Positions 15,342 to 16,563 of a stretch of 64,000 nucleotides of DNA are shown here, one piece after another; the stretch's first letter is position 1; every line of letters starts with the position of its first letter. The translations under genes and the position numbers were made by a program. The notes below the pieces were generated by a model. It was given only the letters and a program-made list of their open reading frames with translations, searched no databases and was not told the origin of the DNA. Source of the DNA: an uncultured Poribacteria bacterium (lineage in GTDB: Bacteria; Poribacteria; WGA-4E; WGA-3G); assembly GCA_951828515.1 (NCBI GenBank), contig OX639992.1:3388217-3452216 (forward strand), given 5' to 3'.

Positions 15342-15629
15342 ATGGGAATTTTTCGCCCAATCTTATTCTTGATCGCGCTTGCCTTACTCCTTGTGAGTGT
15401 CAGGCAATTTATGAACGGTTATAGCGACTGGCAACGAGCGCAACTTGCGGAGGAAGGCTACCGTGCTGAGATACGGGAATTAGAGGCGGAACGCGATCGG
15501 TTGAAACAACGCGTCGAAATGCTGCAAAACGACAGGCTAACAAAGGAGCGCCTCGCCAGAAAACGACTCGGTTATATCAAGCCGGGTGAACTCAGATTTA
15601 AAGTCGTTAAGCCGGATGCGGTTGAATAG
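15342..15629 (+). CDS. Septum formation initiator (FtsB/DivIC-like)
   Basis: 95 residues: an N-terminal membrane helix (FRPILFLIALALLLVSVRQF) followed by a coiled coil (LAEEGYRAEIRELEAERDRLKQRVEMLQND) and the short conserved end KERLARKRLGYIKPGE, the pattern of FtsB/DivIC cell-division proteins. The eno-ftsB order is common in bacteria. A GTG at 15306 would extend it, but ATG at 15342 follows AAAAGGGA and is preferred. Confidence 0.88.
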   Translation: MGIFRPILFLIALALLLVSVRQFMNGYSDWQRAQLAEEGYRAEIRELEAERDRLKQRVEMLQNDRLTKERLARKRLGYIKPGELRFKVVKPDAVE

Positions 15630-15684
15630 TTTTTTGGGTTCACAAAATTGGCTTAAATTTTTTCTTCCCTTTTTTTGCGCGTTG

Positions 15685-15693
15685 TGCTATAAT
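15685..15693 (+). promoter_or_regulatory. Extended -10 promoter for the structured RNA
   Basis: TGCTATAAT is a perfect extended -10 (TGnTATAAT). A start near 15700 falls inside the perfect palindrome GCGAAATTTCGC (15697-15708). The -35 region is T-rich without a good match. Confidence 0.6.
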
Positions 15694-15699
15694 GAAGCG

Positions 15700-16094
15700 A
15701 AATTTCGCATGGCGAGCAATGGCACCAGTTGTGCTAATGATGTCCACCTATCACACGGCAAATGCAGGCATTTGGGGGGTTCGATTCCCCTCTGTCGTAT
15801 CCAGTAGTGTTGTGCGATAACCAAGCACACCTGACGATAACCAAGTCGGTTCTACTGAGACGGGTTCATATACGAGTGAGACGAACCCGGACACCGTAAG
15901 GACACTCGGCAGCGAAAAAGCGTTAGCATTTCGGTGCTAACTTTGAAGGTTCGTCCATGCCTCGTGTTCCTTGAGGTATGCAAGCCGCTTATATCTTCTG
16001 CGACGTGGCAGATTAAGTTGGGTGTAGGCAGGCTTAGACACCGACGGGTGTCGTAACAGGGGAGTAGGAGCCCTTTAAGAATTCTGTTGTTTTT
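15700..16094 (+). ncRNA. Unassigned structured RNA, about 395 nt
   Basis: No convincing gene lies between 15630 and 16131; instead base-pairing is dense. A tRNA T-arm-like hairpin has stem GGGG/CCCC (15776-15779, 15787-15790) and a TTCGATT loop, enclosed with a small hairpin by ACGGCA/TGTCGT (15755-15760, 15793-15798). CAGTAG/CTACTG (15802-15807, 15852-15857) encloses two hairpins with the same nine-base loop GATAACCAA. CGGGTTC/GAACCCG (15861-15867, 15883-15889) has a loop CGAGTG that pairs with CACTCG (15903-15908), an H-type pseudoknot. Further stems: 15922-15941, 15956-15980, 15982-16035 and 16037-16052. The end is AACAG...CTGTT then GTTTTT (16055-16094). It may be a free RNA or the leader of the gene at 16132. 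Not recognisable as tmRNA or RNase P RNA. Confidence 0.7.
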
Positions 16095-16131
16095 CATAGA
16101 AAAACATAGGTTTTTAAGAACAGAAAAGAGA

Positions 16132-16563
16132 ATGGCAGGAATGATTCCGACAATTAGTTCCGGGGTTGCAGGACCGCTCGGCGTGTTACACCTCCCCCGA
16201 TTCTGGTCGAAAGTGCTACTGGATTCCAAGGGGCAGTTGCATGAAGATTATCCCGCATGCGGGGCAGGCTTCGATCAGATGGTGTTAGATGGACTCGGTT
16301 TGGATAAAGATGCTACGCTGGCATATATCAGTAGCAATTCCCCGACTTACCCACAGTTTGAAGCGTGGGTTTCGGCAAACGGAAGTTTTGACCAAGCGGC
16401 AGTCAACGAACTGAACGCCGCAATTTCAGGTTATGATCACGACGACGATACCCGCGGGAGCATCCTCGGTGCAAGCGGTATCGATGATGATGGCTCCATC
16501 TTAGACGCTGTTAATCTCAACAACCTTGATGATTGGTATGAACTTCACGCCGGTTTGGGTTAG
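16132..16563 (+). CDS. DUF5069-like protein
   Basis: 143 residues, soluble, acidic. The stretch LGVLHLPRFWSKVLLDSKGQ...DYPACGAGFDQMVLDGLGLD matches the general pattern of DUF5069 proteins (hLPRhhxK...G..fD). Function unknown. ATG at 16132 has a weak GAG-type ribosome site. It lies 38 bases after the U-rich end of the structured RNA, so the RNA could be its leader. It converges with the Gfo/Idh gene at 16650. Confidence 0.7.
   Translation: MAGMIPTISSGVAGPLGVLHLPRFWSKVLLDSKGQLHEDYPACGAGFDQMVLDGLGLDKDATLAYISSNSPTYPQFEAWVSANGSFDQAAVNELNAAISGYDHDDDTRGSILGASGIDDDGSILDAVNLNNLDDWYELHAGLG

Follow-up and report, generated by a model that had tools for sequence, protein, structure and literature searches.

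A predicted RNA domain with twin AACCA-loop hairpins in protein-less IS607/TnpB-type elements of Poribacteria

Features of the locus

The window analysed here is a 64-kb stretch of Poribacteria DNA. The part of it described below contains the leader of a protein-coding gene, a structured insertion and the gene itself, with the following features.

15660-15751, forward strand: host 5' flank, the leader of a DUF5069-like gene; it contains a promoter-like TATAAT and is conserved in element-free relatives
15755-15798, forward strand: alpha part 1, a minihelix resembling a tRNA T-arm and acceptor, made up of a stem (15755-15759/15794-15798), a small hairpin (15760-15773) and a T-arm (15774-15792; T-loop TTCGATT), covarying in alignment A3, with weak mascRNA and tmRNA T-arm matches below the gathering score
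15802-15857, forward strand: alpha part 2, a three-way junction with twin GATAACCAA-loop hairpins, based on direct reading, folding, covariation and shuffles
15861-15908, forward strand: alpha part 3, a pseudoknot of helix S1 (15861-15867/15883-15889) and helix S2 (CGAGTG 15873-15878/CACTCG 15903-15908)
15922-15941, forward strand: hairpin GTTAG..CTAAC with covarying pairs, joining alpha to the 3' domain
15941-16123, forward strand: 3' domain, a predicted TnpB reRNA/omegaRNA scaffold and right end; the same sequence follows tnpB in L161-L167
15949-15952, forward strand: GTTC, loop side of the 3'-terminal reRNA pseudoknot, pairing with 16118-16121
16118-16123, forward strand: GAAC (pseudoknot strand) followed by AG, the element right end, with the boundary taken from the empty site in L030
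16132-16563, forward strand: downstream host gene, an ORF of 143 aa, DUF5069-like (Pfam PF16798 match under its cut-off)

The host 5' flank forms a separate BLAST block (1-92) in relatives. In the element-free relative L030 this flank runs straight on to AAGAAGGAG-AAAAGAGAATGG, and the empty-site junction reads ...CCTATTATTCACAACATTCATAAGAAGGAG/AAAAGAGAATGG. In the window, alpha starts at 15753-15755, and both the left end (GTTCCTAAATAG...) and the original AAGAAGGAG, the Shine-Dalgarno sequence, have been lost; host sequence upstream reaches 15751. The right end (16123) joins AAAAGAGAATGG, with the start codon at 16132. Most other alpha copies have both transposon ends. The window copy is a one-ended relic, whose alpha and 3' domain still match the structure of the family.

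The twin hairpins and the alpha domain

A preliminary description of this DNA had noted two neighbouring hairpins with a common loop, enclosed by a closing helix, and all of these were found where it placed them. The closing helix pairs CAGTAG (15802-15807) with CTACTG (15852-15857). Hairpin 1 consists of TGTGC (15811-15815), the loop GATAACCAA (15816-15824) and GCACA (15825-15829), and hairpin 2 of CTGAC (15831-15835), the same loop GATAACCAA (15836-15844) and GTCGG (15845-15849), with one T.G pair in stem 2; all of these were read directly in the window. When the 56-nt unit is folded in isolation, the predicted fold is exactly this three-way structure (-14.8 kcal/mol, z -1.76). Folding energy alone is weak evidence for the unit, since 12 of 200 shuffles did equally well. 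Neighbouring hairpins with the same loop (stem of at least 5, loop of 7-11, distance of at most 40) occur once in the 64 kb and in none of 40 dinucleotide-shuffled windows. The identical loop on two adjacent stems is not due to chance. The loop sequence occurs four times in the window against 0.41 expected, and the flanks of the other two sites, checked for pairing, form no stems.

The twin hairpins are the middle part of a structured RNA domain of about 160 nt, named alpha, in which the T-arm minihelix is followed by the three-way junction and then by the pseudoknot. In an alignment of 23 distinct alpha copies, 93.5% of the cells are paired and 14 pairs show compensatory changes. Cells changed on both sides number 82, compared with 33.5 in shuffles (0 of 500 as high), and pairing falls to 34-44% when the partners are slid by 1-3 columns as a control. 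The alignment also shows unpaired bases of high conservation in addition to the pseudoknot. Pseudoknot helix S1 covaries; S2 is invariant in A3, but a compensatory CGAGCG/CGCTC is present in L077. Across 28 homologous copies, both the closing helix and stem 2 covary. Compensatory changes affect three of the six pairs of the closing helix (variants CAGTAG/CTACTG, GCGTAG/CTACGC and CAGTCG/CGACTG) and four of the five pairs of stem 2 (CTGAC/GTCGG, AGAGAC/GTCTTT and CCTAC/GTAGG).

The preliminary description would have been refuted by homologues with freely varying loops or non-covarying stems; this comparison found conserved loops and covarying stems. Its picture of one loop on differing stems applies to stem 2, while stem 1 is nearly invariant, with GUG/CAC in almost every copy. 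Exact identity of the two loops, as in the window copy, is exceptional in the family, where the loops follow the consensus RANAACCA(A/C); in most copies loop 1 ends in AACCAA and loop 2 in AACCAC.

A DNA search retrieved a dispersed repeat family from 27 of 60 related genomes, all of one genus. The alpha covariance model found 33 copies in 18 genomes of this Poribacteria genus, one of them in the window's own genome. In the sister genus it gave two divergent matches with the minihelix and closing stem and without the twin hairpins (L149 178-293, forward strand; L150 1622-1501, reverse strand). These lie in a prophage- or plasmid-like stretch of small ORFs that is conserved between two genomes. 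The preliminary description had also proposed a genome search for further stem-loop units. Across 38 genomes there were 26 occurrences of the hairpin-1 pattern GTGYRANAACCAMRCAC and none of its reversed control; the positions coincide with alpha copies, so there are no free-standing units.

ARAGORN, and Rfam at the gathering score, gave no match at the twin hairpins, and Rfam at this score gave none for alpha (the window at that place, 15600-16200; eight loci). A permissive Rfam threshold returned only T-arm-type partial matches just upstream of the twin hairpins. A tmRNA or permuted tmRNA was rejected, given only T-arm matches and the genome's real tmRNA elsewhere. A phage origin was also rejected, with no relevant phage record and no viral contig.

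The 3' domain

Autonomous and non-autonomous copies share a consistent fold of the 3' domain, in which 28 of the 48 predicted pairs carry compensatory changes. A pseudoknot is formed between the loop of the first stem-loop and the last bases of the element. This pairing is GUUC/GAAC in 20 copies (one with A-U for the first G-C) and GUUA/UAAC in seven; it is complete in 27 of 27 copies, and 0 of 500 shuffles were as high. Guide RNAs of IS607 TnpB are reported to have a conserved pseudoknot that is required for activity (PMC10711439). The covarying 3' pseudoknot, together with a right-end structured RNA that stops at the guide, suggests that 15941-16123 is a TnpB guide-RNA scaffold with the right end, a prediction made from its anatomy.

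Carrier element and autonomous relatives

The carrier of alpha is a short, non-autonomous (MITE-like), protein-less derivative of an IS607-family/TnpB transposon. The element ends are fixed, (n)GTTCCTAAATAGTTCTTTTTCTATG... on the left, where the first two bases vary among copies, and ...TTTTTA(GG/AG/CT)AACAG on the right. The last ~183 nt are common to many other copies, which carry genes upstream of this segment. One of them, L161 in the window's genome, contains the left end, tnpA, tnpB and the same right end within 1.9 kb. Its TnpA passes the IS607 transposase cut-off (NF033518, 156 bits; cut-off 110) and its TnpB the cut-off for RNA-guided TnpB (NF040570, 119 bits; cut-off 100). Autonomous relatives therefore encode TnpA and TnpB between identical ends, placing the family with IS607/TnpB transposons.

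Alpha is absent from the autonomous copies. Among the non-autonomous copies, some have alpha, others a domain that looks unrelated (beta) and a single one a third domain (gamma); alpha is found with two kinds of right half. The beta domain (L011, L036, L053, L060, L071 and L076) has conserved GGGCGAAG...CCCGCAACGTCGAAGCGGTATAGAAAA and AACCA-loop hairpins. The third 5' domain, in L065, is related to neither. A separate, larger IS607 group is present in the same genus (L173-L181; TnpA of about 200 bits) and lacks alpha; it was rejected as autonomous partner on its different ends and the absence of alpha.

Insertion site

Empty sister sites define the insertion point. At nuoD, the empty site reads AAAAAGGAG/TATTTTATG and the filled site AAAAAGGAG/TCGTTTCTAAATAG...TAGGAACAG/TATTTTATG. 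The junction is the same at coxC and sodA; for each of these genes 30 sister loci were read, of which 28 have the empty site. These comparisons place the point of entry of the element immediately behind the GGAG of the Shine-Dalgarno sequence. In these sponge-associated Poribacteria it lies between the ribosome-binding site and the start codon, in the orientation of the gene, and most copies having a left end retain the upstream Shine-Dalgarno sequence. An ORF of at least 60 codons starts 2-20 nt downstream of 53 of 58 right ends, mostly at 5-11 nt, compared with 18% of random positions and 16 of 74 positions after AAGGAG. The remaining five right ends comprise L019 (ATG at +8, in-frame TGA), L068 (gyrA, ATG at +24), one running into N and two without an obvious start.

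Insertion at a GG dinucleotide was not observed: the junctions lie after GGAG and the right end is CAG, that is, an AG core. We infer that the IS607 recombinase crosses over at the AG of (A)AGGAG or GGAG and of the right-end CAG. The IStron CsISt1 also inserts after AG and ends in CAG (PMC4227781). Within the window, 63 of 82 AGGAG sites lie in ORFs and 10 are Shine-Dalgarno-like. No element copies were found inside ORFs, although most AGGAG sites are there, which points to purging of such insertions and thereby argues against efficient exact splicing.

Several further insertions were observed. Different alpha copies (75% identical) occupy the same Shine-Dalgarno sequence of coxC in L185 (G012) and L200 (G025), apparently through independent insertions. 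A heavy-metal gene and a thioredoxin gene each have element copies in more than one species. A truncated right-end copy lies between gyrB and gyrA, before the gyrA start (L163 3317-3341, reverse strand; G000 C1:2341900-2346000). The gene downstream of the element in L019 (1883-1960, forward strand), L024 and L061 encodes a heavy-metal-associated domain protein whose metal-binding motif contains an in-frame TGA (GMT-TGA-G...C); present in three species, it is a possible selenoprotein.

Possible roles of alpha

The best-supported reading includes that alpha belongs to the element and not to the host. We tentatively favour, at a probability close to but short of even, that alpha extends the element's own guide-RNA transcript on the 5' side, with the twin loops engaged in internal or protein contacts. 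Insertions within genes would be purged, leaving survivors in mRNA leaders. A host promoter would then transcribe alpha together with the reRNA scaffold and a guide formed by the first bases of the gene, and TnpB supplied in trans by an autonomous copy would use this transcript to retain the insertion. The least certain steps concern alpha itself: as a 5' extension it might aid folding, processing or stability of the transcript, the T-arm minihelix might act as an RNase P-type processing signal, and the two AACCA loops might dock internally or on protein.

The fixed-end repeat family, the TnpA and TnpB of L161, the 3' covariation, the empty sites, the ORF starts close behind the right ends, the covariation of alpha and its 33 copies, its pairing with two kinds of right half and the AACCA hairpins of beta count in favour of the guide-RNA extension. 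Three observations count against it. The autonomous copies manage without alpha, and alpha is retained where the 3' half is shortened (L020, L024, L040 and L061), which means that it has no strict link to an intact reRNA. No IS607 transposase was found at E≤1e-10 in the alpha-bearing genomes G010, G012, G013, G016, G017, G019 and G025; the proposed mechanism therefore cannot actively maintain alpha there, unless the genes are missing from the assemblies.

The preliminary description took the shared loop as a sign of selection for a loop-binding partner. In this explanation, which we regard as unlikely, the loops bind a protein or RNA in trans and alpha serves as a binding platform or decoy. 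The conserved loops and the covarying closing stem and stem 2 agree with it, hairpins with AACCA loops are found again in beta, a domain otherwise unrelated, and the loop of reRNA stem-loop 1, GGUU, is the complement of AACC. However, loop 1 stays AACC when stem-loop 1 changes (GAUU in L016; GUUU in L024 and L061), with only L019 changing in step, and the GGUU loop is better supported as pairing with the 3' end of the element. On these two grounds a kissing interaction that would join the AACC loops to the 3' domain's GGUU loop, at first favoured, was largely rejected. The proposal is partly supported: the loops are conserved, while a separate partner finds no support in the 38 genomes, where independent stem-loop units are absent. 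Twin loops that belong, as a conserved component, to a larger folded domain and make internal or element-specific contacts fit better than a general loop-binding partner.

We consider it quite unlikely that alpha represents a novel type of RNA by which a transposon can occupy the gap between Shine-Dalgarno sequence and start codon without silencing the gene, either by self-splicing unlike that of group I or II or by ribosome delivery, with the AACCA loops in the working core. Two further explanations are each improbable. In the first, alpha (or alpha with the ends) is an IStron-like ribozyme that splices the element from the mRNA and rejoins the Shine-Dalgarno sequence with the start codon. 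Cutting at the observed junctions would restore their spacing exactly, known group B IStrons are IS607 chimeras with CsISt1 at similar junctions (PMC4227781), and alpha has a pseudoknot and highly conserved unpaired bases. Yet a group I intron was rejected, with no RF00028 match in the elements and none over the cut-off in 11 genomes (two weak sub-threshold matches, in one genome). Autonomous copies are placed identically and leave no space before tnpA in which an intron could fit; the left end varies in its first two bases and is missing altogether from the window copy. Efficient exact splicing should also tolerate insertions within ORFs.

In the second, the folded element acts as a leader bridge that holds the Shine-Dalgarno sequence and start codon together, or recruits ribosomes, and so allows translation of the host gene to continue. 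In its favour, almost every placement is between these two signals in gene orientation, and most copies with a left end keep the upstream Shine-Dalgarno sequence. A helix bridging the left and right ends is, however, unsupported: the ends do not pair in the consensus (the left end is trimmed in some rows), and the right-end bases facing the constant left-end CC follow the terminal stem and pseudoknot of the reRNA, and not the left end, in their variation (GG, AG, CU). Moreover, the left end is absent in the window, L037, L039 and L062, and 1.9-kb autonomous copies sit likewise.

Recruitment of alpha by the host as a riboswitch-like leader element is highly improbable: alpha does precede metabolic genes such as nuoD, coxC and sodA, but the genes behind insertions have no function in common, the coxC and sodA insertions are private to one or two of the sister species read, and in the best orthologous pair (L048/L050) alpha has diverged no less than the coding sequence (both 94%).

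Relation to known elements and implications

IS607/TnpB elements, their protein-less derivatives and guide RNAs are already known. The family described here resembles IS607/TnpB transposons with reRNA (ISXfa1; PMC10711439) in the serine-recombinase TnpA and TnpB of the autonomous copies, the dinucleotide-type junction and the ~183-nt reRNA-like 3' domain with a 3'-end pseudoknot. It differs in its target, the AG of the Shine-Dalgarno GGAG instead of GG, and in that the non-autonomous copies have a further conserved RNA domain on the 5' side (alpha, beta or gamma). Group B IStrons (BcISt1, CsISt1; PMC4227781) are likewise chimeras of an IS607-type transposon and a structured RNA and include protein-less copies. 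In contrast to them, the present elements have no recognised group I intron, occur in leaders only and not in ORFs, and lack the structured RNA in autonomous copies. The phylum also differs, IStrons being reported from Firmicutes and Fusobacteria only (PMC4227781). mascRNA and tRNA-like minihelices share with alpha a T-arm with a TTCRATT loop stacked on a short acceptor-like stem, but the scores are below gathering, and the junction and pseudoknot that follow the minihelix are absent from those RNAs. In the open-access literature, we found nothing on IS607/TnpB elements at Shine-Dalgarno sites or on TnpB in Poribacteria, and no description of an extra conserved RNA domain with twin AACCA-loop hairpins in IS607/TnpB elements.

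Together, the data describe a transposon family that lands in the ribosome-binding sites of genes, for which sister species provide empty sites exact to the base, and that is linked to a conserved structured RNA not in Rfam. An action of alpha on the TnpB guide RNA would give protein-less elements a new means of exploiting an RNA-guided nuclease. If alpha instead rescues translation, it would be a new solution for inserting into important genes.
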